A stretch of 64,000 nucleotides of DNA from Alicyclobacillus kakegawensis NBRC 103104 (GTDB taxonomy: Bacteria; Bacillota; Bacilli; Alicyclobacillales; Alicyclobacillaceae): assembly GCF_001552655.1 (NCBI RefSeq), contig NZ_BCRP01000002.1, positions 1 through 64,000 of the forward strand, read 5' to 3'. The notes below the pieces were generated by a model, which saw only the letters and a list, made by a program, of their open reading frames with translations, was not told where the DNA came from and did not search any database. Position 1 is the stretch's first letter. The number at the start of each line of letters is the position of its first letter. Positions 8,882 to 33,741 of this stretch are shown in pieces. Made by a program: the position numbers and the translations under genes.

Positions 8882-9103
8882 ATGGATAAGCAGTGGCGTT
8901 TTTATCGTCCCTACCGCAGCCCGTTCGACCCCTGCGTCCCGAAGCGTGTCAAGGCATATATTGTCCCTCCCAATCAGTTCATGCCGTTTCAGCCGCCGGG
9001 GCTGCGGACATTCTCGCCGCATGAGGCGCTCCGTAGAGGAACCTTGTGGCCGGATTTGTACAGCCCGTACAATCCGCCGCGCCGGGAGGAGATCGACCCA
9101 TGA
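8882..9103 (+). CDS. cotJA: spore coat protein CotJA
   Basis: 73-residue spore coat-associated protein made in the mother cell. The proline-rich sequence (RPYRSPFDPCVP, YIVPPNQFMPFQPPGLRTF, SPHEALRRGTLWPDLYSPY) is the CotJA family pattern. Strong AGGAGG site before the ATG at 8882. First gene of a cotJABC operon; overlaps cotJB by ATGA. A CATATAGT element (about 8840-8848) fits a sigma-E -10 box, but I did not find a convincing -35 partner. Confidence 0.93.
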   Translation: MDKQWRFYRPYRSPFDPCVPKRVKAYIVPPNQFMPFQPPGLRTFSPHEALRRGTLWPDLYSPYNPPRREEIDP

Positions 9104-9366
9104 CGCGCCATGCCATGCCGAAGGAGTATTACCGGTTGCTGTATGAGCTGCAAGCGGTCGATTTCGTCCTCGTGGAATTGGCCCTGTATCTGGATACCCA
9201 TCCGGACGACACTCAGGCGCTCCATGAGTTCCACCAATATCAACACCGCAAACAGGGGCTCACCCAGCAGTTCGAGCAGGCGTTCGGGCCGCTGCATGAA
9301 TTCGGCAACAGCCCTGTCGGCGCGCGCTGGACGTGGGCGGAGAGCCCATGGCCGTGGCAGGCGTAA
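9100..9366 (+). CDS. cotJB: spore coat protein CotJB
   Basis: About 88 residues, CotJB family: YYRLLYELQAVDFVLVELALYLDTHPDD followed by HEFHQYQHRK and a Trp/Pro-rich tail (ARWTWAESPWPWQA). The ATG at 9100 overlaps the cotJA stop codon and has GGAGGAG about 8 nt upstream inside cotJA, so the two are translationally coupled. The third gene, cotJC, begins 92 nt downstream but is split by the mobile element. Confidence 0.93.
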   Translation: MTRHAMPKEYYRLLYELQAVDFVLVELALYLDTHPDDTQALHEFHQYQHRKQGLTQQFEQAFGPLHEFGNSPVGARWTWAESPWPWQA

Positions 9367-9458
9367 CCGCTTTGGAGCCTGTGCAGCCGGCCGCGGCAGC
9401 ACCCGCCGGGCCTCGCGACGATTATTCGTGCTGATGCCGAAAAAGGGGTGATATTGTC

Positions 9459-9473
9459 GTGTGGGTGTACGAA
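9459..9473 (+). pseudogene. cotJC: cotJC, 5' fragment (first five codons)
   Basis: GTG TGG GTG TAC GAA codes for M-W-V-Y-E, the conserved N-terminus of CotJC. AAGGGGTGA lies 8 nt upstream, the right distance for a start, and the spacing after cotJB suits the operon. The next codon is TAG (9474-9476), which belongs to the inserted element. The remainder of the gene resumes at 33736. I treat it as a gene interrupted by a potentially excisable element, not as a decayed gene. Confidence 0.9.
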
Positions 9474-9492
9474 TAGAACCTCGGATCATGTA
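9459..9492 (+). other. attL, left attachment junction
   Basis: Chromosomal half TGTGGGTGTAC, core GA (9471-9472), then element half with ATAGAAC spacer and arm CTCGGATCATGTA (9480-9492). The arm is the exact reverse complement of the arm in attR. The cotJC frame is cut at the core. Confidence 0.88.
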
Positions 9493-9517
9493 ACCACAGG
9501 GCATACAAATACAAGCC

Positions 9518-11068
9518 CTAGATCCGCACGATCAATTCCAACTCAAATGGCCTATCGAGTGGCCATTCTTTTAGACGGTAGTACCGAACTTCGCGGAGGA
9601 CTGACTTCAGTAACTTATTTTTCGCTTCGATGTCCTCTGTTCGGTTGTACTCCTTGACGACATTGGCAATTGCGGGAATGAGCTTTTGGTGTTGGCGTTT
9701 TATCTGCTCCTGTCCGGCCAGTTCTGCTTCCACCTCGGATAATTCCCGCCTGGCTATGTCTAAACGTTCTCCAATGCGTCGACTACGCTCCAAAAACACT
9801 TCAATCGTGTATACGCCTCGCTCCAATAAATCGTGCAGATTCTCTCGCTGTTTCTCCAAATTAGAGATTTCCTCGTTCATACTCTTGATCTTTCGTTGCA
9901 ATAGTTGGGTGTCATCATGTTGTGTGGATGTATGGTCGCTCCTATGATCCTGTTTTGGAAGGGCGCGCGAAAGTGCGTCCAATTGCTCCAAGACTCTTGC
10001 TTCGACATCTTCATATCTGCCAATGCGTGTATTGCATCGATGTGTGGTGCAAACCAGCATGTTTTTGGATCTCCCATAGTGAGGACGCCGGGCCATCATT
10101 TTCCCGCATTGGCCACAACGAATGAGGCCAGCCAAAGCGTTTTTGAGACTATAGTCCTTCGTATTACGGGTGGACATCACATCCTGCATGGCATGGGCGC
10201 GATCCCACAATTCCTGATCGATTATGGCGGGGTGAGCATTCTCCACGATGATCCACTGTTCGCGGGGAAGTTTCACTTTGCGTTTTCCACCGGAAGGGGT
10301 TTTTACATACTTGTATTGCCCAAAAATGATGCGTCCCAGGTATGTTTCATTGTTGATGATGTCCCGGACCGTGACGCTTTCCCACTTTCCCCTGATCCCT
10401 GCTCCTGTAGGAGGTTCAATATGGTGATCATCCAACCAGTGCGCGATTCCGTATCGTCCCATTCCCTGTGCGCGAAGCTCGAATATCTTTTTCACAATCG
10501 GTGCCGTATCTGGATCGGGCACAAGGTGTAAATCTTCTCCTCGCGTATAGCCATACGGTATCCGACCGACGCACTTTCCTTCCTTTGCGGCCATCCTGCG
10601 CCCGCGGGCAAGTCGTCGGGCGATGATTTTGTACTCTCGTCGAGCTAGAAACTGCTCGAATTCGCTCCACTCCTCATCCAGTTCGTCTTGCAGGTCGTAA
10701 ACCGTTCGAGGCGTGATGATGAGCGTTTCCGAATACTTGAATGTGGCGGCAATAATCCCCTGATCAATCTGATCGCCACGTCCCAGACGATCCATGTCCA
10801 TGGTCAGGACGGCTTCGTATTTTCCTTCCTCTACCGCCTTCAGAAGCCGTTGCACCTCTGGACGGACCGCGATCGATTCGCCTGTAACAATTTCCTCGTA
10901 AACGTCCCTAATGGTGTAGCGATACTTCCGAGCCATCTCCAACAACGCTTTACGATGTTTAGCAAGCGTTTCTCCTTCCCCGCGCGCCTCCGATTCCAAA
11001 TCGGCACGGCTTTTGCGTAAGTACATGGCCACGCTTTTCAGCCCGATTGGATATCCTCCGTTTGGCAT
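9518..11068 (-). CDS. large serine recombinase (site-specific integrase/excisionase)
   Basis: 516-residue DNA recombinase that joins attP and attB and, with a directionality factor, excises the element. The N-terminal resolvase domain has the catalytic serine in YLRKSRAD (Ser20) and MDMDRLGRG. Then follow the recombinase domain (GRIPYGYTRGED...GRIIFGQYKYV), a zinc ribbon (CGQCGKMM and CTTHRC), and a long coiled coil (about 375-445) typical of large serine integrases. The ATG at 11068 has AAAGGTG 8 nt upstream. It is transcribed toward attL and ends about 45 bp from the core. A 14-bp palindrome and a CATATAAT element lie upstream. Confidence 0.95.
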   Translation of the reverse strand: MPNGGYPIGLKSVAMYLRKSRADLESEARGEGETLAKHRKALLEMARKYRYTIRDVYEEIVTGESIAVRPEVQRLLKAVEEGKYEAVLTMDMDRLGRGDQIDQGIIAATFKYSETLIITPRTVYDLQDELDEEWSEFEQFLARREYKIIARRLARGRRMAAKEGKCVGRIPYGYTRGEDLHLVPDPDTAPIVKKIFELRAQGMGRYGIAHWLDDHHIEPPTGAGIRGKWESVTVRDIINNETYLGRIIFGQYKYVKTPSGGKRKVKLPREQWIIVENAHPAIIDQELWDRAHAMQDVMSTRNTKDYSLKNALAGLIRCGQCGKMMARRPHYGRSKNMLVCTTHRCNTRIGRYEDVEARVLEQLDALSRALPKQDHRSDHTSTQHDDTQLLQRKIKSMNEEISNLEKQRENLHDLLERGVYTIEVFLERSRRIGERLDIARRELSEVEAELAGQEQIKRQHQKLIPAIANVVKEYNRTEDIEAKNKLLKSVLREVRYYRLKEWPLDRPFELELIVRI

Positions 11069-11885: not shown

Positions 11886-13316
11886 ATGGGGGAACGAGTG
11901 ATCCGGAGGAGTACCAAGCCGAAATTTAAAACCGGAAAGCATCTGATTTACGGGTTAAACCATACCCAACAGGGACTTGCCGGATTGTTCTTGCGCTTGC
12001 ATGGTGAGGAAGTGAGGTATTGCCACGATACGCACACTTGGCTGGTGTGGGACGGTAATCGGTGGGTGCGAGATGAAACTGAGGTTGTGTGTCAACTCGC
12101 GATGGATACGGTCAAAACGTTGCACAACATTGCTGATCACTGGGAGGCCAAGAGTGGTATCGATCAGCTTACGCGGGATCAGGTGAAGAAGTGGGCGATT
12201 CGAGCCGAGACACGCCGTATGTTGGAAGAGGCCTTAAAGCTGTGCCGAGTCAATCCTCGTATTGCCATGAGAGAATATGATTTTGATCGTGATCCGTTCC
12301 AGTTAAACGTAATCAATGGGACATTGGATTTGCGTACGGGTCATCTCCGCGATCATCGTAAGAGGGATTACATCACGATGATGGCTCCTGTTGTGTATGA
12401 CGAGGGGGCAACTTGTCCGAACTGGTTGGAATTCCTCGCGAGGGTCATGGGGGGAGATGTTGAGCTCATCGAGTTTGTAAAGCGTGTCGTAGGTTACGCA
12501 TTGACCGGGGATAGTCGAGAAGAAAAGATGTTTCTTCTATATGGACCTCCACAAGCCGGGAAGACAACTTTCCTGGAGATCATTCGATCTCTCCTCGGAG
12601 ATTATGCGCGTCAGACAGATTTTTCGACGTTTGTGGCAACGGCTGTTGCGCCGAACGCACCTCGTGGAGACTTGGTACGGTTGGCCCGCGCACGCTACGT
12701 GTCGGCGAGTGAGGTGGAAGGTGGTCAACGGTTTGCGGAGGGATTGCTGAAAAGGCTAACTGGTCGAGATACGGTTACGGCGCGTGCTCTTTACAAAGAA
12801 TCCATAGAGTATCGACCTGGATATAAGCTGTTTTTCGGAGCCAACGATCTTCCAGATGTACGTGCGGACGAGGAAGCGATATGGCGTCGCATTTGCGTAA
12901 TTCCATTTTCTTGTCGTATTGATGACGAGGATCGGGACAATTTTTTACGTGACAAACTTGAGGCGGAGTTGCCGGGGATTTTGAAATGGGCGGTGGAAGG
13001 ATGTTTGGACTGGCAAAGGAATGGACTGGATATTCCAGGTGCCGTGTCCAACGCCACTCGTGTGTATCGAGAGGAATCGGATACCATCAAACAATTTTTG
13101 GAAGAATGTTGTATAACGGGGCCGGATAAGCAAGTGATGAGTAGCCTTCTTTATGGTGCATATGATGATTGGTGTGAGATTTACAATCTCAAACCGATTA
13201 GCCATAAGGCACTGATCCAGTATGTCAGTCGCCGTTTAGGATGTACGAAGGCTCGCGAAGGTGGTACGGGTCGGATGGTGATCACCGGGATCGCCTTACG
13301 TATACACGGTTCTTAA
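11886..13316 (+). CDS. P4-type SF3 helicase (phage/plasmid primase-like, D5 N-terminal family)
   Basis: Replication-initiator ATPase, 476 residues. An N-terminal D5_N-like region (HDTHTWLVWDGNRWVRDETE and DPFQLNVINGTLDLRTGHL) is followed by a superfamily 3 helicase core with Walker A GPPQAGKTT (G220-T228), ARARYVSASEVEGG (Walker B region), and LFFGANDLPDVRADEEAIWRR (sensor 1 and arginine finger region). There is no TOPRIM or AEP primase module, so it resembles only the helicase half of P4 alpha. A candidate iteron origin starts 16 bp after its stop codon. It implies that the excised circle can replicate. Confidence 0.88.
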   Translation: MGERVIRRSTKPKFKTGKHLIYGLNHTQQGLAGLFLRLHGEEVRYCHDTHTWLVWDGNRWVRDETEVVCQLAMDTVKTLHNIADHWEAKSGIDQLTRDQVKKWAIRAETRRMLEEALKLCRVNPRIAMREYDFDRDPFQLNVINGTLDLRTGHLRDHRKRDYITMMAPVVYDEGATCPNWLEFLARVMGGDVELIEFVKRVVGYALTGDSREEKMFLLYGPPQAGKTTFLEIIRSLLGDYARQTDFSTFVATAVAPNAPRGDLVRLARARYVSASEVEGGQRFAEGLLKRLTGRDTVTARALYKESIEYRPGYKLFFGANDLPDVRADEEAIWRRICVIPFSCRIDDEDRDNFLRDKLEAELPGILKWAVEGCLDWQRNGLDIPGAVSNATRVYREESDTIKQFLEECCITGPDKQVMSSLLYGAYDDWCEIYNLKPISHKALIQYVSRRLGCTKAREGGTGRMVITGIALRIHGS

Positions 13317-13331
13317 TATTGGAAAGTGATC

Positions 13332-13439
13332 TGTGAAGGGTGTGAACCATGTGAATGATTTTCTCCATGTTTCATGCAATCTGTTGAATATGTGGCTTAA
13401 GATTGCAATCTATTATTCACACCCTTCACAAGGTTCACC
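13332..13439. other. candidate replication origin with inverted iteron triplets
   Basis: Three contiguous 9-bp iterons on the plus strand (TGTGAAGGG, TGTGAACCA, TGTGAATGA; 13332-13358) face three on the minus strand (GGTGAACCT, TGTGAAGGG, TGTGAATAA; 13439-13413). All six share GTGAA. The 54 bp between them are AT-richer. They lie immediately downstream of the P4-type helicase gene. From memory the P4 alpha iteron is GGTGAACAG-like, which is strikingly similar. Confidence 0.72.
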
Positions 13440-13949
13440 GGTAGGCTGAAAAACCAGTTTGGAACAGGGGGTAAGTGGGAAAAGGGGATCGAAACGGAAA
13501 GGCCACCTGTAGAGGGATGAGTCACGGATCGTCAGTTCCCAGGCCCGCGAATGACTCACGAATTACGATTTTCATGCAGGGTGCCTCGGTGGGCTAAATC
13601 CTCTCGATCCTTTTTCAATTAAGTGAAACCCGCATTTTCGCTCACAAGTACTCAACTTCCACAAACCTGTCAATTCGGTTTTTCCTCCTTCCTTCGATGG
13701 TGAGGAAAAATAAGTGCAAAAAATCGAGTTTCTGTTGTGTGGAAACGTCAGAATGTTGCGAAGACAATGGAAATGAGGAGAGTTTATTCACCTGAGATTG
13801 CATGACAATTGCGCCTATTGCGTCTACGCGATGAGCCGATTGCATGTAGTTCGCCACACAAAATTACCGTTGCCATCATAGGCGATGGGGTTTGGCGTTC
13901 ACGCACGCGCAAAAATGCGCGTAGCACACATGGGAGGGAGGATCGAGAA
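13440..13949. other. intergenic, no confident gene
   Basis: About 500 bp between the iterons and the DUF5348 gene. A minus-strand frame (13857-13642, 71 residues) lacks a ribosome site and I do not support it. No clear promoter or terminator seen. Confidence 0.4.
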
Positions 13950-14177
13950 GTGAAACGTGGAGTTTTGCGTTTTAATTCTGAATCGGAAAGATGGCAATTT
14001 GTTTCCGACTCAGGAGAAGTTCAATACGACATGCATTGTGGAGATGGAGTCGACATAATGGTCGGTTCACAGTATGTGCATGGTCGCGTGGAAATGGCGA
14101 GCGACTGGTACGTCATTTTTCCGAACGCCCGTTTTTGCCTTATGCGCCAAAGTTTCTACGTTGCAAGAATGGCGTAG
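13950..14177 (+). CDS. DUF5348-like small protein
   Basis: 75 residues, start GTG at 13950 with GGGAGGGAGGAT 7 nt upstream. Ends with the pattern YDMHCGDGVDIMV...YVHGRVEMASDWYVIF, matching DUF5348 (xLHCG, a central W/Y, R-x-E-M and WYL blocks), a domain common on mobile elements of Bacillota with no known function. The longer open frame upstream of the GTG has no ribosome site. Lies between the origin and the radC-like gene. Confidence 0.65.
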   Translation: MKRGVLRFNSESERWQFVSDSGEVQYDMHCGDGVDIMVGSQYVHGRVEMASDWYVIFPNARFCLMRQSFYVARMA

Positions 14178-14270
14178 GAGCTTTTAACGTTTAGTATGAA
14201 CCAAAAATCGACAGACCGTGTTGGAGGTCTTGATTGGGCGGTTTTGGCCGTTCCCGATCCCTCTTTCTCT

Positions 14271-14320
14271 CCGACCGGTCGGCCTACCCTCGGCAGATTC
14301 GGGGAGGGGGGCGACCGGTC
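14271..14320. promoter_or_regulatory. twin ACCGGT operator-like sites before the radC-like gene
   Basis: A perfect 12-bp palindrome CCGACCGGTCGG (14271-14282) and a second CGACCGGTC (14312-14320), 40 bp apart, about four helical turns. They immediately precede the GGGAGGG ribosome site of the next gene. Confidence 0.4.
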
Positions 14321-14338
14321 TTGGGAGGGTTAAAGTGA

Positions 14339-14779
14339 ATGGGTTACAGGATCCCTTGTGTGCGGGTTACGCTGGTGCGTGAAGGTTCAATACCGTCGGA
14401 CACGAAACAGGTCCGATGTGCTGAAGATGCATACCAAATCCTAAGTTCTTATCTGGATGGAGTAGATCGTGAACACGTCGTGGTCATGTTCCTGAACACC
14501 AAGCACTACGTGTTGGGAATCAACACGGTGAGTGTTGGGAGTCTCGATGCCTCGGTCGTTCATCCAAGGGAGGTACTCAAGCCTGCGATTCTCGCCAACG
14601 CTAGCGCGATTTTGATTGCGCATAACCATCCATCGGGCGACCCGGAACCGAGTCCAGAGGACATTTCAGTCACGAAAATACTGTGTGAAGCATGTAAAAT
14701 TATCGGGATTGACCTTCTCGATCATCTGGTGCTTGGTGAGGGACGGTTTATCAGCATTCGAGCACAGGGATATTTGTGA
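14339..14779 (+). CDS. RadC-like JAB/MPN-domain protein
   Basis: 146 residues, JAB-family metalloprotease-like fold, no helix-hairpin-helix domain. The JAMM metal motif is visible: HNHPSGDPEPSPED from His95. Such RadC-like proteins are common on phages, plasmids and genomic islands; their biochemical role is unsettled and the link to DNA repair is weak. The ATG at 14339 follows a GGGAGGG site by about 10 nt. A strong terminator follows. Confidence 0.85.
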   Translation: MGYRIPCVRVTLVREGSIPSDTKQVRCAEDAYQILSSYLDGVDREHVVVMFLNTKHYVLGINTVSVGSLDASVVHPREVLKPAILANASAILIAHNHPSGDPEPSPEDISVTKILCEACKIIGIDLLDHLVLGEGRFISIRAQGYL

Positions 14780-14814: not shown

Positions 14815-15660
14815 GTTTGAAGGAGATCAAATAGAAGTGAGCAAGCGGTGTTTTCGTTTTTTCTTTGGATTTACTTTCATGTTAGGAGAAATTGAATTTC
14901 TATCTTGTGGTTGACAAATAACACCGACTTTACAATGAGGTCATAGACTACTATCTCTATTCGCGCGATCCGGTGCAAGGTGTCGGTATCGTCCGAACCG
15001 GCGTAAGGATTGCCGGTACATCAAAGTCCGGGTGGTAGCGCACCTATTTCGGCTCAGCTATAGCCCGGCGGTGTACGCCCAAGTTGAGAAGGCGGGCAAA
15101 TTTCGCTCAGACACTTTGTCAGCATTCTCTTGGCCAATGGGGAATGAAGAAGTGTCCGGAGTGGCGCACCATCAGCATCTTCTGTCGCGCGTGTGGCGTA
15201 GCGATGGGAATGTGGTGCTCGTGCCGTGCGGTTTTTCAAGCATGGCAACACAAATTTCAAGGAGGTGATGACGAGAAGGAAGGAGGTCAATGTAAGCGAC
15301 AGGATGGTCGCCTGACAATGCGCCGAGGCGGAAGCCGAGGATGCGACGCCCACCGCTTGCCAGTGGCAAGCACCCGTCAGGGTCTGTGGGCGGCCACGGT
15401 TTTTACGACGACATTTTGTGAAAATGGCGTCGTAAAAACACCCGCGGAGCGGGAATGTGGCACAGATGCTAACCACTTGTACATATGGACGGCAAAGGCA
15501 CGGGCCGAGCCACTGTCTCTGCACGAAGGGGCAGAGACAGTGGCGGACGCAGATCTGAAAGTGCCGTGAAATAGAGCGATCTTGCACGGGATCGAAGAGA
15601 AAAAGGGCGGAAACGAGCCAGTGTGCCAACGGGCGAAGTCTGTCCAGGGAGGGGGGCACA
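14815..15660. other. non-coding region rich in perfect hairpins
   Basis: No confident gene. Three strong inverted repeats crowd 15355-15544: GCTTGCCA/TGGCAAGC (15355-15371); a long stem GTTTTTACGACG-CATTTT pairing with AAAATG-CGTCGTAAAAAC (15399-15439); and a perfect 14-bp stem GCCACTGTCTCTGC/GCAGAGACAGTGGC (15509-15544). A good AAGGAGGTG site at 15260 leads only to a 15-codon frame. A Cys-rich stretch (CRACG and CSC, about 15190-15235) may be the remnant of a small zinc protein. Confidence 0.5.
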
Positions 15661-16515
15661 ATGATGCGTAGCACCGAAAAGACGCTTCTTGACCAGGTGA
15701 ATGCGGTATTTCGCCACACCAGACAAGGGAGCATTCTCACGCGTGAGCGCTACCGGGAAACCGGGGGGCGAATCGCGAAATTTCTCGGTGAGCGATTTCA
15801 GTTGAAAAATTTACGGAATCTGCAGGACAAACATTTGGAGGCGTATGTTCGTTACATGCAGGAGAACAGGCGAAGTCCCGCGCATATCAAGACGGAGTTG
15901 TCTGCCATCCGATGGATTGGGGACCAAATCGGATTGAAGCGTCCGCTCGAAGATCCGCGTACGTTCAACACCAGAATGGAGATCGGGCGTCGAAGTCTTC
16001 GAGGCCATGATCGGACTTGGAAGGCAGAAGATTTACGGATTATTGACCGTGCACCCGAGAGAGTCCAAAGTGTTTTGATTCTGGCCCGAGATCTAGGCCT
16101 TCGCATTCATGAGGTGCATCGGATCGACGTGGCGCATGCAAGAGATGCTCTGCGAACGAATCAGATTGAGATAAAGGGCAAAGGCGGTTTGATCCGTAAC
16201 GTTCCTCTGAGGGGAAGTGCGCGAGACGTGCTGGAGACCGCCATCAAGACGGTTAAACCCGGCCAAAAGTTGTTCGTGCCACATGGGATGAAAACCCATG
16301 AGGCGATTCGGGAGGTGCAGGACTTTATACGGGATAATCGTCCACTGGGGAGTACGGTGACGGCTCATGGACTTCGCCATGGATATGCCAGGGATCGTTA
16401 TTTGGAGTTTCGCAGGGCAGGGATGAGTGAACGTGAGGCGAAGGAACGGGTAAGTGAGCTACTCGGCCATCATCGGGGTGAAGTAACCGACATCTATCTG
16501 GGATCGCTCCGATAA
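15661..16515 (+). CDS. tyrosine recombinase/integrase 1
   Basis: 284-residue phage-integrase-type recombinase. An N-terminal SAM-like core-binding domain (about 1-110) precedes the catalytic domain with the first Arg in LARDLGLRIHEVHRI, HGLRHGYARDRY (H-x-x-R), and the Tyr in HHRGEVTDIYLG. It resembles the integrase_1 group found on integrative elements and plasmids. The ribosome site GGGAGGGGGG precedes the double ATG. Not closely similar to the two other tyrosine recombinases in the element. Target unknown; the hairpins just upstream are possible sites. Confidence 0.8.
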   Translation: MMRSTEKTLLDQVNAVFRHTRQGSILTRERYRETGGRIAKFLGERFQLKNLRNLQDKHLEAYVRYMQENRRSPAHIKTELSAIRWIGDQIGLKRPLEDPRTFNTRMEIGRRSLRGHDRTWKAEDLRIIDRAPERVQSVLILARDLGLRIHEVHRIDVAHARDALRTNQIEIKGKGGLIRNVPLRGSARDVLETAIKTVKPGQKLFVPHGMKTHEAIREVQDFIRDNRPLGSTVTAHGLRHGYARDRYLEFRRAGMSEREAKERVSELLGHHRGEVTDIYLGSLR

Positions 16516-16922
16516 TGCAGAATCATCGTTTGAGGTTGTCTCCAAGTTACATAAACCCACCGCATCGCGGAATGACATAGAATGAGTTATGCGCAATATT
16601 GTGCGAAACATCAGACGAGAACCGGAATGCAAAAAACCTCGTACCGGCTCATTTGCTTCGGTTTTATCGTATCTGACAAATCAGCGCTAATCATGTTTTT
16701 GAGCGAAGACTTAACCCAAAAAGACTTTCATCATCCAAACTTATGGTATAATCAATCCAGTTGAATACCGTGCTGAAAATGGACATGCCATTTTCCTGAT
16801 TACAGGGAAATGGTATGTCCATTTTTCGTTTTTCGTGGGTCGATCATGGCCGTCCGGTTGTGCCGGGGGGTTTTTGCTGACTATGCAATATACCCGCCGT
16901 ATGAATGAGGGAGGTATTGCAA
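16516..16922. other. intergenic containing repeat unit copy 1
   Basis: No gene. Holds the promoter-hairpin unit listed separately, a second weaker GC stem with a T run (about 16849-16877), and a TTATGCGCAAT box (16587-16597) similar to the boxes near the third tyrosine recombinase. Confidence 0.5.
16747..16826 (+). repeat. promoter-hairpin repeat unit, copy 1
   Basis: TATAAT at 16747-16752, about 23 nt, then a long hairpin AAATGGACATGCCATTTTCC / GGGAAATGGTATGTCCATTT (16776-16826) ending in T's. A copy at 32929-33007 matches across -10 box, spacer and hairpin. Changes in the 3' arm keep pairing with the unchanged 5' arm through G-U pairs. Likely a short terminated transcript. Confidence 0.7.
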
Positions 16923-17885
16923 GTGCGTCTTTCTGAAGCATCTGCGTCATTCCTAAACATCCGAACGCAAGAAGGGTTTTCGCGATACACAATCAGTGCC
17001 TATCGTCTTCAGCATCAACTTCTTATACGCGATATTGGGGACTTGGACATTGAAGATGTCACGCTTCCGGTTTTGCGCGAACATCTAAGCCGTCAAACAC
17101 ATCTGAAGCCTTCGAGCCTTGGACACAAGATCAGGGCTATCAAGACCCTCTTTAACTGGCTTGTTGAAGAGGAACTATTGTTGCGAAATCCTACGCTCAA
17201 GCTGAATGAACCTAAACGTGGCAAGCGGGTTCCAAAGGCGTTGACGATTGAAGAACTGGAATTACTCCGTGATTCCTGCGAATGCACCTTGGAGCACGCG
17301 CTGGTTGAGTTTTTCTTTGCCAGCGGATGTCGCGTAGCAGAAATTCAACGATTGAATCGAAGCGACATCGACTGGCAAAGGAACGCCGTAAAGGTTCTGG
17401 GCAAAGGAGACAAAGAACGTGAGGTCTACTTCGGAGCAAAAGCCCATATCTGGATGAAACGCTACCTGAGCGAGAGGACTGACGATGATCCGGCCCTATT
17501 CGTAACCGTAAGGAAGCCCCATCGCATGTCGATCCATGAAATTCAATACATTTTCAAACGGATCGCAAAACGCTGTGGATTGGCGGATCGTGTGAGTCCA
17601 CATAAAATGCGGCATACGCTGGCTACGGTGTTGATTAACCAAGGTGCCCCGCTGGTTGTTGTGCAAAGCATCCTTGGCCACGAGAAGCCGGAGACGACAC
17701 AGTTGTACGCGACCCTCAGTGGATCTGCGCGCCAACAGTCGTATCAACGATATTTTGTGCAGTGGCCGCATCTGCACTATGGTAAAATGTCGCATAGTCA
17801 TACGGTTTGCGTGGGTCGTCATTACTCAGTTAACGGGCAGGTTAACGCAAATCGACTTTATGCTAATATTATGGAAAACTATTGA
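16923..17885 (+). CDS. tyrosine recombinase 2 (XerC/D-like)
   Basis: About 320 residues. N-terminal SAM-like domain (SRYTISAYRLQHQLLIRDIG...HKIRAIKTLFNWLVEEELL), then the catalytic set: Arg in FFASGCRVAEIQRL, Lys in VLGKGDKEREV, HKMRHTLAT, LGHEKPETTQLYA with the nucleophilic Tyr. The C-terminal tail of about 55 residues past the Tyr is longer than in XerC/D. GTG at 16923 has GGAGG 8 nt upstream. Follows repeat unit copy 1; its substrate is not known. Confidence 0.85.
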   Translation: MRLSEASASFLNIRTQEGFSRYTISAYRLQHQLLIRDIGDLDIEDVTLPVLREHLSRQTHLKPSSLGHKIRAIKTLFNWLVEEELLLRNPTLKLNEPKRGKRVPKALTIEELELLRDSCECTLEHALVEFFFASGCRVAEIQRLNRSDIDWQRNAVKVLGKGDKEREVYFGAKAHIWMKRYLSERTDDDPALFVTVRKPHRMSIHEIQYIFKRIAKRCGLADRVSPHKMRHTLATVLINQGAPLVVVQSILGHEKPETTQLYATLSGSARQQSYQRYFVQWPHLHYGKMSHSHTVCVGRHYSVNGQVNANRLYANIMENY

Positions 17886-19611: not shown

Positions 19612-20454
19612 TTACTTCGAAACATACAGTCCCTCCATAGCATCACGCATCTTTTCGAGGCTGGGGGTCGCGTAGCTTCGGGTAACGTTTAGATCCGTGT
19701 GCCCCGCCAATTTTGCGACCGTCACTAAATCGACACCAGCATCAAGTAACCCACGAACGAATGTGTGGCGAAGGGCGTGGGGGTGGTATTGCTCCCCCAA
19801 CTGTCTGAGCATGTGTTCGACTGTTCTCGCTGAAATGCGTCGTCGCTGGTTCGACACGAACAACGGATCGTCCAGGGCAACGTCTCCTCGCTGAGAGAGA
19901 TATTCTTGTACTCGGCTTCTTACTTCAGACGTGGCGGGGACAACCCGTTCCTTGTCACCTTTACCGCGATTCACGTACACCAATCCTCCACGTTTCAATT
20001 CGATGTCCTTCACATTGAGCGCGACCAATTCACCTACCCGAAGCCCACAATACAGCAGAATAGTGACAATCGCGATGTCACGAAGATTTCGCTTTTGCTC
20101 CACTAGGCGCAGAAGGCGATTTCGATCATTGCGCTCGAGAGATTTTGGAATCCGTTGCAGGATGGGTGTACGTTTGACAACGCGTATGTGTTGAACACAG
20201 GATTCCTGGCCGGACCACTTTGCGAAACCTCGAATCGCGTTGTACGCGAGGTTGACCGTACTGGCCTTGAGGCCTTTGGCGGTCAGATACGTGATATAAG
20301 ATTGCACATCCACGCGGGTAAGTCCGTCATCGAGCGACGTGCCTGATTCGACGAGGTACTGGTTGAATTTTTCCAGTTGCGTCCGGTAAGTCTTGATCGT
20401 TTTTTCGGATTTGCCAACAAGGGCTTGCTCGGCGTATTGGTCAATGATTGACAT
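19612..20454 (-). CDS. tyrosine recombinase 3 (XerC/D-like)
   Basis: 280 residues from the ATG at 20454, which has GGAGG 10 nt upstream; a GTG at 20541 would add 29 residues but lacks a ribosome site. SAM-like domain (KTIKTYRTQLEKFNQYL, STVNLAYNAIRGFAKW), then the catalytic residues: Arg in LLYCGLRVGELVAL, Lys in VNRGKGDKERVV, HPHALRHTFVRGL, LAGHTDLNVTRSYATP with Tyr. Typical integron/XerD-like length. A recombinase-like core site (20555-20583) lies just upstream of its start. Confidence 0.88.
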   Translation of the reverse strand: MSIIDQYAEQALVGKSEKTIKTYRTQLEKFNQYLVESGTSLDDGLTRVDVQSYITYLTAKGLKASTVNLAYNAIRGFAKWSGQESCVQHIRVVKRTPILQRIPKSLERNDRNRLLRLVEQKRNLRDIAIVTILLYCGLRVGELVALNVKDIELKRGGLVYVNRGKGDKERVVPATSEVRSRVQEYLSQRGDVALDDPLFVSNQRRRISARTVEHMLRQLGEQYHPHALRHTFVRGLLDAGVDLVTVAKLAGHTDLNVTRSYATPSLEKMRDAMEGLYVSK

Positions 20455-20473
20455 GGTTTTGATGCCTCCAGAG

Positions 20474-20583
20474 TTATACGCAATGATTTTCGGGTGTTCA
20501 CGCGATGCTTCCGCCTGGAATGACAAGCTTTTCTCAATCACATTGTACTATAATATTGCGTATAACTCATACTTATACGCAAT
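20474..20583. repeat. inverted-arm site next to tyrosine recombinase 3
   Basis: Core 20555-20583: ATTGCGTATAA, 7-bp spacer CTCATAC, TTATACGCAAT, two perfect 11-bp arms, the geometry of a Xer/Cre-type recombination site. A third arm TTATACGCAAT is at 20474-20484, and a one-mismatch version is at 16587-16597. Confidence 0.6.
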
Positions 20584-20649: not shown

Positions 20650-21657
20650 ATGTTGTTCCTTGGGGGTGGGTTACTCGCAGGGGATCTTCAATCTTTGTCG
20701 AACAGAGGAATAGATGTTTCCAACCTTATACAAGAGTGGGTTATTCGAATGGATGAGTTTACGCGAGCGTATTATGAACTGGCATTCAAGGTCGCCTTCA
20801 TGGAGCGCAAAGGTAATGCCTTTCAGGATTTTTTCTCAGACATAATGGAAAAGTGTCATCCAGGTGCATTCGAGCGTGTGCGTCCATGGGGTCGACACGG
20901 TGACCGAAAGAACGACGGTTGTATCATAGAAACTGGTCAGTTCTTTCAGGTATACGCTCCGAATGAGATGAAGGTAGATGACGCAATTGGCAAGATTGAT
21001 ACAGATTTCCGAGGCGCATTGGAACATTGGTCAAAGTATTTACGGGAATGGATATTTGTTCATAATTCCCGGGATGGGCTGAGTCCAGACATTACTCGAA
21101 AACTCGCTGACCTTCGCCTGGAATTTCCGGGAATAAAGATATCTACATTCGGATTCGAGTCATTGCGGCAAAAGGTGTTTTCACTGAGTGAACCTGATAT
21201 AGCATCCCTTCTTGGGCCAGTTCCAACTCAGAGGGATATGATGAGCTTCGGATTCGAGGACTTAAAGCCAATATTAGTTAGAATAGGCGAGGCTTCAGAG
21301 GGAACTGAGGAGGATATGCATCCCGTTCCACTGTCAAAGTTAACGGCAAATGGGCTGTCAGCAAGTGTTCAAACACTAATTAAAGCTGGCATGACGCGCG
21401 CGCATCTAGTGCAGGACTTTTTTTATACATGGCATGATCCGCTTCTTGGTGACCGTGTAGCTGCTGCATTTCGTGAAGAATACACTCGCTTAAAAATGAG
21501 TGGCTACGATCCTGATGAAATCTTCATCAGATTGCAAGTATTCGCTGGGGGTTCAGAAATAAACTCTCCACGACATCAGACTGCTGTGCTAGCTGTCTTG
21601 GCACACCTGTTTGAGAGTTGCGATATCTATGAACGTCCACGCGAGGAGTTAGTATGA
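20650..21657 (+). CDS. ABC-three-component system, nuclease-like/CTD subunit
   Basis: 335 residues. The N-terminal half has a restriction-endonuclease-like pattern (FQDFFSDIMEKC...GDRKNDGCIIETGQFFQVYAP, with D85, D89 and Q100), the rest is helical (residues 190-330) and resembles the C-terminal domains paired with DUF2326 ATPases. Overlaps the next gene by ATGA, and the three genes form one operon. Start uncertain: the ATG at 20650 has a poor site; ATG at 20749 (MDEFTRAYYELAFK) is closer to what such proteins usually begin with. I recognise the family from gene order and motif, not from a database match. Confidence 0.6.
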   Translation: MLFLGGGLLAGDLQSLSNRGIDVSNLIQEWVIRMDEFTRAYYELAFKVAFMERKGNAFQDFFSDIMEKCHPGAFERVRPWGRHGDRKNDGCIIETGQFFQVYAPNEMKVDDAIGKIDTDFRGALEHWSKYLREWIFVHNSRDGLSPDITRKLADLRLEFPGIKISTFGFESLRQKVFSLSEPDIASLLGPVPTQRDMMSFGFEDLKPILVRIGEASEGTEEDMHPVPLSKLTANGLSASVQTLIKAGMTRAHLVQDFFYTWHDPLLGDRVAAAFREEYTRLKMSGYDPDEIFIRLQVFAGGSEINSPRHQTAVLAVLAHLFESCDIYERPREELV

Positions 21658-21902
21658 TGATATTGCCAACCAAACGGCTGTCTGAAGAACGGGCCTTGAT
21701 ACGTGTAGGTGCCGAAATACTGGGGTTACTAACAGAGCCGAAGACCGTTTCGCGTTTGTGGAACGAAATTAAGGATGTGCATGGTCGTTATACTCATGGT
21801 GCTCCATTAACATATGACTGGTTCGTACTGGCGCTAGATTTTTTATACATCTTGAACACAGTTGATCTTGAAGACGGTCGGATTCGGAGGAAATACAAGT
21901 GA
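21654..21902 (+). CDS. ABC-three-component system, middle component
   Basis: 82-residue small helical protein (LPTKRLSEERALIRVGAEIL, WFVLALDFLYILNTVDLEDGRIRR). Length, acidic-basic pattern and position between the nuclease-like gene and the ATPase gene fit the middle component of ABC-3C conflict systems. Start ATG overlaps the previous stop and its own stop overlaps the GTG of the ATPase gene, so translation is coupled at both ends. Confidence 0.6.
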   Translation: MMILPTKRLSEERALIRVGAEILGLLTEPKTVSRLWNEIKDVHGRYTHGAPLTYDWFVLALDFLYILNTVDLEDGRIRRKYK

Positions 21903-23647
21903 TCCATCGTATATTCAGTAGTCGTACTACTTTCAAAGAACTTACGTTTCATCCCGGTCTTAACCTGTTAATTACCGAAAAGAGTCCAGGTGCGACGAGC
22001 AGACAGACTCGTAATGGAGCAGGGAAGTCCAGTTTGGTAGAAATTATCCATTTTCTTCTTGGTTCAAACTGCGATAAACAATCTATTTTTAGAAATGATG
22101 CGTTGATTCATGATTACTATGGAATGGATTTCGATTTAAGGGGCTCACGGACTCAGGTAAGCCGCTCTGGCCAAAGGCCATCGGATATTTACGTAACGAC
22201 GGATAATCACACATTATGGCCACGCGAGAGTGGCGTAAGCAAAAATGAATTGAAGTTTTCTAATTCCGATTGGAAGTCTATCCTGGGCCTTCTGGTATTC
22301 AATCTCCCAATCAATAACGACAATGTAAAGTTCGGTCCAAGTTTTAGGTCTTTAGTTACGTATTTTGCTCGTAGGCAAAGTGCAAACGGCTTTAGCACAC
22401 CTGAAAAGCACTCTACAATACAACAACTTTGGGATACACAGGTGTCCATTTCTTATTTGCTTGGTTTAGATTGGACTATTCCACAGCAATGGCAGGTTGT
22501 GAGGCAGAAAGAAGGGGCACTAAAGGAACTTCGGAAGATTGCTGCAGATGGGGAGCTACATCATGTAATTGGAACAGTTGCTGATCTACGCACAAAATTG
22601 ACGTTGGCAGAAGAGCGTGTTCGTCGGTTACGTGAAAATATTGAGACCTTTAATATTCTTCCAGAATACCGCGAACTCGAAAACGAGGCCAATGAGTTGA
22701 CGCAGAAGTTGGCAAACTATTCAAATTTAAACACGGTCGATCGAGAGCTAATTGACGAACTCGAACGTTCCATCCAAAATGAACCCATTCCTCCCGTTGA
22801 CAGCCTAGAACGTCTCTATAGAGAAGTCGGTGTCATTTTTCCTGACGTTGCGAAAAAACGAATTGAGGATGCACGAGTGTTTCATCAGTCTGTAGTGAGT
22901 AATCGCAGGTCCTACCTTCAGGGTGAAATCGATGCAGCTAAACAACGTATTGCGGAACGTAACGCAGAAATGGAACGCTTTACGAAGCGGCGTGCCGACA
23001 TCATGAAAGTACTTAGTTCGCATGGGGCTTTGGAGCATTTTATGGATTTACAGTCCCATCTTGTAAAGATGGAGGCTGAAGTTGAATCCATTCGCCAACG
23101 GTTTATCGCTGCCGAGCAATTAGAGGGTCAGAAGACCGAACTGGAGATTGAGCGTCGGAAACTGCTGGTTCGGTTACAACAAGACTACCAGGAAGAATCA
23201 AGTGTTTTAAGGGATGCCATTGTCACCTTTCAAGAGATTTCGAACGCACTGTATGAAAATGCGGGGAGCTTAAGTATCGTGGAAACCTCCAACGGGCCTC
23301 AGTTCGAGGTGAAGATACAAGGTGGAAAGAGCAAAGGGATAAACAATATGCAGATATTCTGTTTTGACATGATGTTGATGAAAATATGTTCAGCACGGGC
23401 GATCGGTCCAGGATTCCTAATTCATGACAGTCATCTGTTTGATGGTGTCGATGATCGACAGATTGCGACGGCATTAAGCATCGGAGCACGATTGGCCGAT
23501 GAGTGTGGCTTTCAATATATCGTTACCATGAACTCTGATGACTTACCTAAAGAGTTCCCTCCAGGTTTTGATCTCTTGGATTATGAACTGCCGTTACGAC
23601 TTACCGACGCGTCGGACGATGGAGGATTATTCGGTATTCGTTTTTGA
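21899..23647 (+). CDS. ABC-three-component system ATPase (DUF2326, SMC-like)
   Basis: 582 residues. Walker A NGAGKSS at residues 39-45 within an SMC/RecF-like N-terminus (FHPGLNLLITEKSP), long coiled coils (about 210-330 and 365-450), and a C-terminal DUF2326 domain with FLIHDSHLFDGVDDRQIATAL (Walker B-like) and YIVTMNSDDLP. These ATPases partner with a nuclease or other effector in predicted conflict systems. GTG start with GGAGG 8 nt upstream, coupled to the middle component. Probably an anti-invader module, inferred from family and from its place beside a type I RM system. Confidence 0.75.
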   Translation: MIHRIFSSRTTFKELTFHPGLNLLITEKSPGATSRQTRNGAGKSSLVEIIHFLLGSNCDKQSIFRNDALIHDYYGMDFDLRGSRTQVSRSGQRPSDIYVTTDNHTLWPRESGVSKNELKFSNSDWKSILGLLVFNLPINNDNVKFGPSFRSLVTYFARRQSANGFSTPEKHSTIQQLWDTQVSISYLLGLDWTIPQQWQVVRQKEGALKELRKIAADGELHHVIGTVADLRTKLTLAEERVRRLRENIETFNILPEYRELENEANELTQKLANYSNLNTVDRELIDELERSIQNEPIPPVDSLERLYREVGVIFPDVAKKRIEDARVFHQSVVSNRRSYLQGEIDAAKQRIAERNAEMERFTKRRADIMKVLSSHGALEHFMDLQSHLVKMEAEVESIRQRFIAAEQLEGQKTELEIERRKLLVRLQQDYQEESSVLRDAIVTFQEISNALYENAGSLSIVETSNGPQFEVKIQGGKSKGINNMQIFCFDMMLMKICSARAIGPGFLIHDSHLFDGVDDRQIATALSIGARLADECGFQYIVTMNSDDLPKEFPPGFDLLDYELPLRLTDASDDGGLFGIRF

Positions 23648-23812: not shown

Positions 23813-25945
23813 TTGTCCCAACTTGAAAACATCGAAGCCATTGAAAAGCGTTTGTGGCGTGCAGCAGATACGCTAAGGGCCAATTCAAATTACGCCAGCA
23901 ATGAGTACTTTCTACCCGTTATGGGCTTAATCTTTCTGCGGCATGCCTATAGCCGATTTCTTGCCGTACGCGATGAAATCCTTGCCTCTCTTCCCACACG
24001 GGGCGGACGTACCAGAGCATTGTCAAAAGAAGACTTCTCCCAAAAGGGTGCCATCTTTTTGCGTGAAATCGCGCAATTTGATTACCTGGTGTCTCTGAAG
24101 GACAGTGATGATCGCGCTCGTGCCATTATTGACGCCATGGAGTCTATCGAAGCGGACTACGAATCTTTACGCGGGGTTCTTCCTAAGTCAGAATATCAGG
24201 AACTGGACAACGAAGTGCTCGGTCAACTGCTTCGCACGCTCAACCCGGAAGCGTTGAAACGGGCGTCCGGAGACATTTTTGGTCGCATCTACGAATATTT
24301 TCTTACGCAGTTCGCGGATCAGAAGGCGCACGACGGTGGTGAGTTTTTTACCCCTGTGTCCCTTGTCTCCCTCATCGCAAATGTGTTGGAACCTGAAAAA
24401 GGCATCGTGCTGGATCCCGCTTGCGGCTCCGGTGGCATGTTCGTACAAAGCGCTCATTTCGTGGAGCGCCTACACGCCAACCCAACCGAACGACTCACGT
24501 TTTACGGATTGGAGAAAAATCCGACGACCATTCGGTTAGCAAAGATGAATCTGGCGGTACACGGGCTTGAAGGGGATATCCAGAAAGCTATTACCTACTA
24601 TGAAGATCCGCATAACCTACTTGGCAAAGCAGACTATGTAATGGCCAATCCGCCGTTCAATGTGGATGAAGTGGATGCCGAAAAGGTGAAGAATGATCCA
24701 CGCCTGCCCTTTGGCTTACCGGGCGTGAACAAAAGTGGCAAGGTGTCAAACGGAAATTACCTCTGGATTAGCTATTTCTACAGCTATCTGAACGATCACG
24801 GTCGCGCCGGGTTCGTCATGTCCTCACAGGCATCAAGCGCCGGACGGGATGAAGCGGAGGTTCGCCGTAAACTCATCGAAACCGGCGATGTCGACATCAT
24901 GATCGCGATCCGCTCAAACTTTTTTTACACTCGGACTGTACCGTGCGAACTTTGGTTTCTCAATCGTGCAAAGCCGATCGAGTACCGTGATAAGGTGCTC
25001 ATGATTGACGCCCGTAACATCTATCGCAAGGTGACCCGGAAAATATATGATTTCAGTCCAGAGCAGTTGCAGAACCTTCTTGCGATTGTGTGGCTCTATC
25101 GTGGGGAAAATCAACGGTTTGTTGAATTACTGAAGAGCTATCTGCACAGAACCTCGGAGGAAGCGAGACGATGCTATTTTTACCTTGACCAGGATGGCAA
25201 AGAAACCGACTTACTACGGGGCTACATATCTGCTCTTCATGAGTTGCGCGAGCGGATCGATCCGTTTGTATCGTCCGATCTTGTCAGCGATGGTCCCGTT
25301 CTTGCGGAAACCCGAAGCGAGTTCGATTCCACTCTTGCGACATTTTCCGAGGATGTAACTCGCTTCTTCGACTTGTTGATTAAAAAGGACGGGCTGTGGA
25401 GTGACAAGAAATTCGATTTGCCTGCTTTGAAAGAAGTCGAAAAGCATATGTCCGAACTGGCTCACCAAAGCCGTGATCTCGTGAAACAGGCAGAACACGT
25501 GAACAAGTTGGTCAACCGTCTGATCGACGTGTGTGAGAAGGGATTTGGAGCAAAGGAAAGTAGTTTGTGGTCACACACTGAGATCAACCGTGCGAAAAAG
25601 GCGGTAGAGTCTTGCCGACAGGAAGCGGTAGAACAGTTGAAACTCGTGCGCTACTATTATCGCCAGGCTGAATGGCTGTTGGAGCGATTCCCCGATGGGC
25701 AATACCGCGACGTGCCTGGATTGGTTAAGACGGTTGACCAGGAAGAAATCAAAGACAACGACTGGAGCCTGACGCCTGGTCGCTATGTCGGCGTTGCGCC
25801 CGAGGAACAGGACGAGGATTTTGATTTTGAGGAAGCATTGCGGGAAATTCATATGGAGTTGGAAGGGCTAAATACTGAGGCTATCGAATTAGGAACCAAG
25901 ATCCAGCGTAATTTTGAGCAATTGGGGGCAACCTCACGTGCCTAA
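23813..25945 (+). CDS. hsdM: type I restriction-modification system, methyltransferase subunit
   Basis: 710-residue N6-adenine methyltransferase of a type I R-M complex. N-terminal HsdM domain (KRLWRAADTLRANSNYASNEYF), SAM-binding motif DPACGSGGMF from D201, catalytic NPPF at N279. The C-terminal 300 residues are helical and longer than in EcoKI HsdM. Start is TTG at 23813 with GGAGGTAG 7 nt upstream. First gene of an hsdM-S-R operon with overlapping ends. Preceded by a 165-bp spacer that should hold its promoter. Confidence 0.93.
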   Translation: MSQLENIEAIEKRLWRAADTLRANSNYASNEYFLPVMGLIFLRHAYSRFLAVRDEILASLPTRGGRTRALSKEDFSQKGAIFLREIAQFDYLVSLKDSDDRARAIIDAMESIEADYESLRGVLPKSEYQELDNEVLGQLLRTLNPEALKRASGDIFGRIYEYFLTQFADQKAHDGGEFFTPVSLVSLIANVLEPEKGIVLDPACGSGGMFVQSAHFVERLHANPTERLTFYGLEKNPTTIRLAKMNLAVHGLEGDIQKAITYYEDPHNLLGKADYVMANPPFNVDEVDAEKVKNDPRLPFGLPGVNKSGKVSNGNYLWISYFYSYLNDHGRAGFVMSSQASSAGRDEAEVRRKLIETGDVDIMIAIRSNFFYTRTVPCELWFLNRAKPIEYRDKVLMIDARNIYRKVTRKIYDFSPEQLQNLLAIVWLYRGENQRFVELLKSYLHRTSEEARRCYFYLDQDGKETDLLRGYISALHELRERIDPFVSSDLVSDGPVLAETRSEFDSTLATFSEDVTRFFDLLIKKDGLWSDKKFDLPALKEVEKHMSELAHQSRDLVKQAEHVNKLVNRLIDVCEKGFGAKESSLWSHTEINRAKKAVESCRQEAVEQLKLVRYYYRQAEWLLERFPDGQYRDVPGLVKTVDQEEIKDNDWSLTPGRYVGVAPEEQDEDFDFEEALREIHMELEGLNTEAIELGTKIQRNFEQLGATSRA

Positions 25946-27134
25946 AACACTAAATGATGTATGTGAGTTCATCGTAGATTGCCTGCATAGTACCGCACCT
26001 ACACAGCCAGAAGGGTTTCCGTTAATCAGAACCCCTAACGTTGGTAGAGGGCGCTTAGTGCTCGATGATGTGTATTACGTTTCCGAGGAAACGTATCGTA
26101 TTTGGACACAGCGTGCAGTACCAGAACCGAATGATCTCATTCTTGCCAGAGAAGCCCCTGCTGGTAATGTTGCCATTATAAAAGATGGACAGACGGTGTG
26201 TCTCGGCCAGAGAACAGTTCATCTGCGTCCCAACTCTGAAATCGTAGACCCGGATTTTCTTTGTTATTTGCTCCTTTCACCAGTCCATCAGGCCTTGCTT
26301 TTATCAGCAGAGACGGGCGCTACAGCCAAACATGTAAACATGAAAGACATACGAAAGTTGCCGTTGATGTATTTGCCGGAATTGGACACCCAACGGAGAA
26401 TTGGTTCCATCTTGTCGGCCTACGATGATCTCATCGAAAACAACCGTCGCCGGATCGAACTGCTCGAACGGGCAGCACGACTGTTGTACAAGGAGTGGTT
26501 CGTGCATTTTCGGTTTCCCGGCCATGAGCATGTGAAGATTGTTGATGGCGTACCGGAGGGGTGGATTAAAACCACTGCATACGAAGCGATGGAGATTCTA
26601 AGTGGTGGAACTCCAAAAACATCTGTACCCGAGTATTGGGAAGGGGATATCCCGTTTTATACGCCAAAGGACTCTTCGGATAGCGTGTATGTGTACGAGA
26701 CAGAGAAAAAGCTCACAGAGGAGGGGCTTCGAAATTGTAACAGTAAATTATATCCAAAGGATACGGTGTTTATCACTGCTCGAGGCACGGTTGGTAAGAT
26801 CAACCTAGCACAAGTCCCCATGGCAATGAATCAATCATGCTATGCTCTGGTTGCGCGTTCACCTCTTAATCAATACTTTCTGTACTTTGCACTTGTGCAT
26901 GGGGTACAGCAATTTAAGAGCAGAGCCTCGGGTTCGGTGTTCGATGCAATTGTTCGCGATACATTCAAGCTCATTCCTTTTGCAGTTCCAAACGACTGGC
27001 TTGTTAATGCCTTTACGTCATACGTTGAGCCATTGTTAAGACAAATTGAAAACTTGTCGACACAGAATCAAAAGCTCAAGCTTGCCCGTGACCTCTTACT
27101 CCCCCGTCTGATGAACGGAGAGATTGCTATATGA
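25938..27134 (+). CDS. hsdS: type I restriction-modification system, specificity subunit
   Basis: About 398 residues, two target-recognition domains. TRD1 covers about 1-145, the central conserved helix about 146-200 (LDTQRRIGSILSAYDDLIEN and LYKEWFVHFRFPG), TRD2 about 205-345, and the C-terminal helix ends KLARDLLLPRLMNGEI. TRDs set the bipartite DNA target, which cannot be predicted here. GTG at 25938 overlaps the end of hsdM; a TTG at 25914 would add eight residues. No second or silent hsdS is nearby, so TRD shuffling by the tyrosine recombinases is not obvious. Confidence 0.9.
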   Translation: MPKTLNDVCEFIVDCLHSTAPTQPEGFPLIRTPNVGRGRLVLDDVYYVSEETYRIWTQRAVPEPNDLILAREAPAGNVAIIKDGQTVCLGQRTVHLRPNSEIVDPDFLCYLLLSPVHQALLLSAETGATAKHVNMKDIRKLPLMYLPELDTQRRIGSILSAYDDLIENNRRRIELLERAARLLYKEWFVHFRFPGHEHVKIVDGVPEGWIKTTAYEAMEILSGGTPKTSVPEYWEGDIPFYTPKDSSDSVYVYETEKKLTEEGLRNCNSKLYPKDTVFITARGTVGKINLAQVPMAMNQSCYALVARSPLNQYFLYFALVHGVQQFKSRASGSVFDAIVRDTFKLIPFAVPNDWLVNAFTSYVEPLLRQIENLSTQNQKLKLARDLLLPRLMNGEIAI

Positions 27135-30100: not shown

Positions 30101-30343
30101 GTGGCTGTGGAACTTCTCCGAATTCTGAAGGAAGAGAAGTTGAAGATTGATCACTGGCGCGACAAGGAATCGACCCGAGATGCAGTAAGGGTGGCAATTC
30201 GGGACTTTTTATACAGCGAATCTACGGGGCTTCCAGTGGATAGCTATACAGATGAAGACGTTGATGAGAAGACTGATTTGGTGTTTCGGCACGTGTTTTG
30301 GGCATATCCCACGGTGCCTTCGCCGGTGTATGCGGGTGCTTAG
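27131..30343 (+). CDS. hsdR: type I restriction-modification system, restriction/translocase subunit
   Basis: 1070-residue motor and nuclease subunit. N-terminal PD-(D/E)xK nuclease with D149 in RRADIVGF and ELK at E163-K165; SF2 motor with Walker A QGSGKS (K303) and SDEAH (D401), then TGTPLF and the second RecA domain with MWLTGFDVPSLSTLYLDKPL and QTIARANR. The helical C-terminus binds HsdM. ATG overlaps the hsdS stop (ATGA). All motifs appear intact, so restriction is probably active. Confidence 0.95.
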   Translation: MSRMTEDNLVQQTTAQYLQDSLGWESVYAYNHEDFGPNSLLGRNSRREVVLTRYLRASLERLNPGLPNSAYEDAVRDIVEYSASQSTLATNREKYALLKDGIQVSYRNAHGELKQERLRVFDFDDPLQNHFLCVRELWIYGDIYHRRADIVGFVNGIPLLFMELKNVHKDLRHAYEENLSDYKDTIPHIFHHNAFIVLGNGIRAKVGTLSSQYEHFYDWKRLDESDAGVVDMETLLKGICDKRNFMDLFENFILFDDSSGQTVKILAQNHQFLGVNRAIESVRNRQERLGKLGVFWHTQGSGKSYSMVFFARKVHRKIGGNFTFLIVTDRDDLDTQIYKTFAGCGLVNHEKDPCRASSGDDLRQLLSEHKSYIFTLIQKFNQTVDPNIGYSLRDDIIIISDEAHRTQYGLLNLNMRNALPNASLIGFTGTPLFQGDERTKQMFGDYISTYDFQRAVEDEATVPLYYDARGDKLGVATNDLNERIAEKLEEFETDDINVEERLERELRRDYHIITAEKRLRQIAEDFAIHYSNAWETGKAMFVCIDKITCVRMYNLIQDAWQRRIAELESNLSKVHDPQEVIYRQRQINWMKDTQMAVVVSEEQGEIEKFRKWRLDIKPHRQLIKNGFETDDQKRLDIESAFKKESHPFRVAIVCAMWLTGFDVPSLSTLYLDKPLKAHTLMQTIARANRKNEGKNNGLIVDYCGILKNLRAALATYAGRGDEGPGGSGEDGRDPAKPDEELLADLVESIALVRSFLHEGNAPLDDIIHQTGFARNAAILAAKEVANQNDETRKRFEVMCREVFKKFKACLNVSGVNEYRQEYEAINIVYRSLQEDRDLADISDIIQKLHGVVDQAITTTNERVGESTTPYDISKIDFERLRKEFERSSAKNTTVQNLKSVIEKRLRRLLMQNPLRTDFQKHYEEIVEEYNREKDRLTIEKTFEALLELAKSLNEEESRAMREGLDEESLAIFDLLTKPDLSAKEVKRIKQVAVELLRILKEEKLKIDHWRDKESTRDAVRVAIRDFLYSESTGLPVDSYTDEDVDEKTDLVFRHVFWAYPTVPSPVYAGA

Positions 30344-33715: not shown

Positions 33716-33741
33716 TACATGATCCGAGTTTTTATGAAAAG
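33716..33741 (+). other. attR, right attachment junction
   Basis: Element arm TACATGATCCGAG (33716-33728), spacer TTTTTAT, core GA (33736-33737), then chromosomal AAAGAAACTGC. The arm is the exact inverse of the attL arm and both arms are 7 bp from the core. Confidence 0.88.

Follow-up and report, generated by a model that had tools for sequence, protein, structure and literature searches.

In PICIs and SaPIs, the origin of replication lies immediately 3' of the initiator gene and consists of two iteron sets around an A+T-rich stretch, an organization that, according to the accessible part of the paper describing it, no known bacterial replicon other than PICIs has (PMC6092414). SCC elements carry a helicase that is either of the DUF927 kind (Cch) or of the D5_N type (Cch2), and according to excerpts of the account of SCCmec Cch2, both the whole protein and its isolated C-terminal domain bind direct repeats that lie just 3' of the gene encoding it (PMC7581432). 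In P4, annotated type-1 repeats, mostly TGTTCACC (= GGTGAACA) and two of them 9 bp apart, are located in crr, directly 3' of alpha, and in the Streptococcus phage Sfi21 a 302-bp non-coding region directly 3' of a putative primase gene is annotated as the origin. Gene-intervening elements such as skin, gin and SpyCI split a host gene, which precise excision would restore. gin has no phage genes and carries serine recombinases and a restriction-modification system; the text of the gin paper makes no mention of replication. SpyCI of streptococci excises and replicates as an episome, as stated in the available portion of the report (PMC4129442).

The window analyzed here, a stretch of 64,000 nucleotides from Alicyclobacillus kakegawensis, contains an element of about 24,265 bp that, like these, splits a gene. 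The gene belongs to the Mn_catalase family, adjoins CotJB and is one that we take to be the sporulation gene cotJC, whereas SpyCI targets mutL. Its 5' stub (GTG TGG GTG TAC GAA, 9459-9473) and the left attP arm (CTCGGATCATGTA, 9480-9492) together occupy 9459-9492 on the forward strand; the right arm (TACATGATCCGAG, 33716-33728) and the rest of cotJC occupy 33716-34293 on the same strand, with the remainder of the gene resuming at 33733-33738. Joining the ends of the element yields an attP whose 13-bp inverted arms (TACATGATCCGAG/CTCGGATCATGTA) match perfectly, and a crossover at GAA, which would be placed at 9471-9473 and 33736-33738, joins the flanks into the cotJC frame (GTG TGG GTG TAC GAA AAG AAA CTG). 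Excision is therefore plausible, and if precise it would restore the reading frame. An uninterrupted version of the gene is found in another genome of the same genus, where the flanks align with locus L155 at 89% over 445 bases and 93% over 265; locus L156 aligns too. A literature search covering mainly open-access papers listed no recognizable account of a cotJC-intervening element.

The gene next to the left end, on the reverse strand (9518-11068), encodes a large serine integrase with Resolvase, Recombinase and Zn_ribbon_recom domains by Pfam and a match to the PHROGs integrase family phrog_95. Three tyrosine recombinases are also present (15661-16515, 16905-17885 and 19612-20541), together with a RadC-like gene and a defence cargo made up of an ABC-3C system (PADLOC PDC-M68; CTD10, MC6, DUF2326) and a type I restriction-modification operon, at 20650-23647 and 23813-30343. 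Upstream of the first tyrosine recombinase, the stretch 14900-15560 holds no convincing gene; its RNA folds far better than shuffled sequences (z -6.8, 20 shuffles). Rfam gave no match there, and across 9000-34400 it gave a single match, below the gathering score of the family. A PHROGs scan of 10 element ORFs, restricted to those long enough and other than the defence genes, found no structural or packaging family: the ORFs matched integration or DNA-metabolism families or nothing. Some PICIs lack phage-derived packaging or capsid-interference genes. We do not file the element as a PICI. SCC elements insert at rlmH/orfX, and this one sits in cotJC.

What may make this more than a passive insertion is a repeat array at 13332-13439, which the first-pass annotation had singled out as six 9-bp iterons in two inverted triplets and as a likely origin. 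Direct reading confirms six 9-bp units in two opposed, gap-free triplets, all with GTGAA. The first triplet is on the forward strand (13332-13358), with TGTGAAGGG at 13332, TGTGAACCA at 13341 and TGTGAATGA at 13350; the second is inverted (13413-13439, reverse strand), with GGTGAACCT at 13439-13431, TGTGAAGGG at 13430-13422 and TGTGAATAA at 13421-13413. A repeat finder reports perfect complementarity over 15 bases between 13332-13346 and 13416-13430. The spacer between the triplets (13359-13412) is 67% A+T, compared with 52% for the element as a whole, making it a candidate melting region, and contains an 8-bp inverted repeat (TGCAATCT/AGATTGCA, 13375-13382 and 13400-13407, repeat finder). The array begins 15 nt past the stop of a helicase gene whose ORF ends at 13316, bearing out its placement directly after a P4-type SF3 helicase gene (Pfam D5_N). 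The array was ruled out as an att site, since the att arms map to 9480-9492 and 33716-33728.

The suggestion that the shared GTGAA and the 9-bp period were unlikely to arise by chance also stood up. The pattern GTGAAN4GTGAAN4GTGAA, which was chosen after the array had been seen, matches twice in the window and not once in 100 dinucleotide shuffles; in the whole 3,421,583-base assembly it matches exactly twice, both times at the array, and the triple pattern read backwards has no match there. A test blind to the motif, in which the commonest 6-mer in the 300 nt 3' of the gene was compared with 300 shuffles, gave p = 1/301 for the window.

But does such an array follow related helicases elsewhere? 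Relatives were drawn from the order (a match in 21 of 59 genomes), the class (77 of 398), IMG/VR, and phages and plasmids (12 records). The helicase alone gave no confirmed relative against genome contigs and two in a single-protein viral search; with an alignment as the query against IMG/VR, the best 80 viral loci out of at least 600 rows were kept. Filtering took 153 loci to 151 that match the helicase by tblastn, 150 with a stop codon and 85 nonredundant ones, window included, after removal of loci sharing 70% identity or more over 150 aa, and of L003, which has 291 nt downstream. This set reflects a search by similarity rather than random sampling, and open frames shorter than 300 aa, probably fragments, occur in three of the 85.

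When the 300 nt 3' of the stop codon were compared with dinucleotide shuffles, 43 of the 85 loci had a commonest 6-mer with p<=0.01 (42 of 84 without the window); among control segments, 1 of 70 lying upstream, 2 of 71 at +1000 and none of 85 within the gene did so. Opposed tandem sets with an 8-12-bp period follow 35 of 84 helicase genes, window excluded, compared with 1/69, 3/70 and 1/84 in the controls. Repeats on the same strand are spaced 8-12 nt apart more often than in the controls (lag 9: 28/84, versus 5/69 upstream and 14/70 far), and in the loci at p<=0.05 the motif is on both strands in 47 of 51. Together with the shuffles and the assembly-wide uniqueness, the 6-mer and opposed-set tests rule out chance repeats. 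Against an origin weigh the other 42 of the 85, which miss p<=0.01, among them two plasmids with close helicases (Thermaerobacter L035, p 0.99; pGEOTH02 L036, p 0.75). The 6-mer test also misses real-looking arrays: that of L127 (AGGGA) scored p 0.50 and was found with 5-mers.

The motifs differ from one helicase to another (GGTTA, GGTGAC, AGTTAC, GGTGTA, CTGTCC and others), as would be the case if every helicase recognized units of its own. The geometry of the window recurs at L070, whose helicase is 37% identical: GTGAA units, here GTGAACC, stand 0, 9 and 18 nt after the stop and TTCAC units at 80, 89 and 98, where the window has them at 17, 26 and 35 and at 100, 109 and 118. L070 is a viral contig with what we read as a tape-measure-like gene next door. 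Four or more downstream copies of GTGAA occur in just three of the 85 loci (the window, L070 and L066), compared with 1/70 upstream and 0/71 far. As a separate observation, contig C38 of the window's own genome (L002, 12.8 kb) encodes a second P4-type helicase, followed by opposed GTGACA iterons, 8 copies in 300 nt.

The helicase itself is a stand-alone P4-type SF3 protein of 476 aa (11886-13316, forward strand; Pfam D5_N, DUF5906, Pox_D5). PHROGs labels it a DNA primase, the four best families being matched only C-terminally (e.g. 335-763 of 772). A profile built from 12 relatives found 8 distinct sequences of solved structure, including the putative primase C962R, poxvirus D5/E5 and 7ola, which is deposited as a DNA primase and is presumably a SaPI protein. 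With an AlphaFold2 model built from 42 sequences (pLDDT 90.4), all of the best 50 Foldseek rows were C962R or E5, D5-type primase-helicases. At its C terminus, the model predicts a strand-helix-helix-strand-strand unit that we name 'winged-helix-like', the presumed reader of the iterons.

Taken together, we consider it quite likely that the 24.3-kb serine-integrase element in cotJC has a replication origin whose initiator-binding part is the array. The helicase from the adjacent gene would read the GTGAA units through its winged-helix-like end, and two helicase oligomers may assemble, one on each opposed triplet, and open the A+T-rich spacer between them; the excised circle would then be copied with host priming or a priming activity as yet unseen. 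Because the repeats share their build with the start sites of replication in phage P4 and related genomic islands, the element is probably able to replicate itself once excised. As predicted, the array would be an origin of a known kind in an unusual place, an assignment to the P4/PICI/SCC type that we make with good confidence: it lies immediately 3' of an SF3/D5_N gene, with tandem iterons in two sets around an A+T-rich stretch. The first-pass reading of the array as a likely origin is thus upheld as a prediction, with position, orientation, 9-bp step and core matching P4 crr, Sfi21, PICI/SaPI and SCCmec Cch2, and with recurrence in about half of the relatives.

The usual partner of such a helicase is a primase, a point not raised in the first-pass annotation. 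No primase domain was found among the element ORFs scanned. In the closest relative, genome G016, a Prim-Pol gene lies just upstream of the helicase; a tblastn search of the window with that Prim-Pol returned nothing better than E 0.17. As far as scanned, the window helicase appears to be without its partner, a weak point of the origin reading that leaves room for two others. In one of them, the array is the relic of an origin, and the module fell silent after loss of the primase gene. The undetectable Prim-Pol fits such a loss, as does the length of the protein, 476 aa where 63 of 85 relatives have an open frame of at least 700 aa. However, the helicase ORF is intact and keeps the invariant columns of the family, all six GTGAA cores are intact, and the SaPI primase is not essential in vivo, according to the accessible sections of the Cch2 paper (PMC7581432); we regard a relic as unlikely. 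G016 itself, whose helicase (L166, contig C55) is 61% identical, has no array 3' of the gene and no match to the GTGAA triple pattern in its genome. It cannot serve as a test of array conservation, because the gene end differs and the contig ends: similarity stops near the 3' end of the gene and is followed by other sequence. At L166 (11765-14469), the very 3' end of the helicase gene diverges, and a gene that by eye is IS-like comes next.

In the other reading, the array is a crr-like cis element or a copy-control (incompatibility) site bound by the helicase, and synthesis starts elsewhere in the element. The comparison with P4 raises this directly. The likeness is close (an array directly 3' of alpha, a GTGAA core, a 9-bp step and copies in both orientations), but P4 has two 120-bp copies and a separate rep_origin (9086-9809) with type-1 repeats of its own, so that an array working like P4 crr could be a cis-required region rather than the start point. 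P4 alpha is moreover a 777-aa primase-helicase, 24% identical to the window helicase over 235 aa, and the integrase annotated in P4 belongs to the arm-type kind rather than to the serine recombinases. Since GTGAA is uncommon in the family, the likeness to P4 may be coincidence. Against a separate start point stands the absence of the triple pattern from the rest of the genome; furthermore, the stretch immediately 3' of the gene serves as the origin itself in Sfi21 (by annotation) and in PICIs, the latter as given in the available text (PMC6092414). We therefore hold a crr-like role to be improbable. Sfi21, whose putative primase is 22% identical to the window helicase over 305 aa (E 8e-14), differs in being a phage replicon and in a motif that by eye is built on GTTAC. 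PICI origins share with the array the position 3' of the initiator gene, the two iteron sets and the A+T-rich middle; here, however, this organization sits in a serine-integrase element in cotJC, and tailed-phage relatives of the helicase have the same organization. SCCmec differs in its iteron, AAGTG, in its target gene, and in its CCPol/MP partner, of which none was identified in the window element, although not searched for by name.

That the opposed triplets form an RNA hairpin ending the helicase message, as a terminator or stability element, is very improbable: the transcript does fold better than shuffled sequence (z -3.6, equalled by 0 of 200), but no terminator-like site was found at the array (a promoter and terminator scan of 13200-14400 gave no excess over shuffles), a hairpin needs no 9-bp tandem period, the unit order differs between the arms, and the 51 relatives at p<=0.05 have 4 to 11 motif copies in varied orders.

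A second cotJC element places the predicted origin in a wider setting. In a genome that appears to be Alicyclobacillus acidiphilus NBRC 100859 (with C67 corresponding to contig NZ_BCQI01000067.1), the same att arms are found at the two halves of a split cotJC on contigs C37 and C67, and att arms, integrase, replicase and iterons are recovered at L182:2546-9683 and L183:747-1320. Further along the same contig is a type I restriction-modification operon (HsdM, HsdS and HsdR by Pfam; L188:9938-15622). The halves are on different contigs and there is a further cotJC-like copy (C8), so the full extent of this element is tentative. A search for the attR pattern in 84,980 species genomes, a collection that may not include the window's own, returned that A. 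acidiphilus record only. The two integrases are 78% identical. The A. acidiphilus replicase, by contrast, is of the Prim-Pol/DUF927 kind and 1176 aa long; it does not resemble the window helicase significantly (blastp best E 1.7), and its gene is followed by opposed AGGGACAT iterons at 85, 97, 118 and 128 (forward) and 190 and 198 (reverse) from the gene end. The replication modules are thus a D5_N helicase with GTGAA iterons in one case and Prim-Pol/DUF927 with AGGGACAT iterons in the other, reminiscent of the alternation of DUF927 and D5_N-type helicases in SCC.

The two elements may belong to a non-phage lineage that resides in cotJC and exists as a replicating circle when outside the gene, with integrase and att sites fixed and the replication module swapped. 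The switch in a spore gene would then at the same time be a self-copying, defence-carrying replicon, an analogue of SCC in spore formers; we see the case for and against this as evenly balanced. The two cotJC elements with their different replicases offer a direct test case for replication after excision among elements that intervene in sporulation genes. For uncharacterized phages, islands and plasmids, the family comparison suggests a candidate rule for finding origins, namely to search the region 3' of a D5_N helicase gene for tandem repeats in opposed sets that recur every 8-12 bp. For A. kakegawensis, the insertion in cotJC changes from a passive insert to a candidate replicon for which both initiator and origin are defined.
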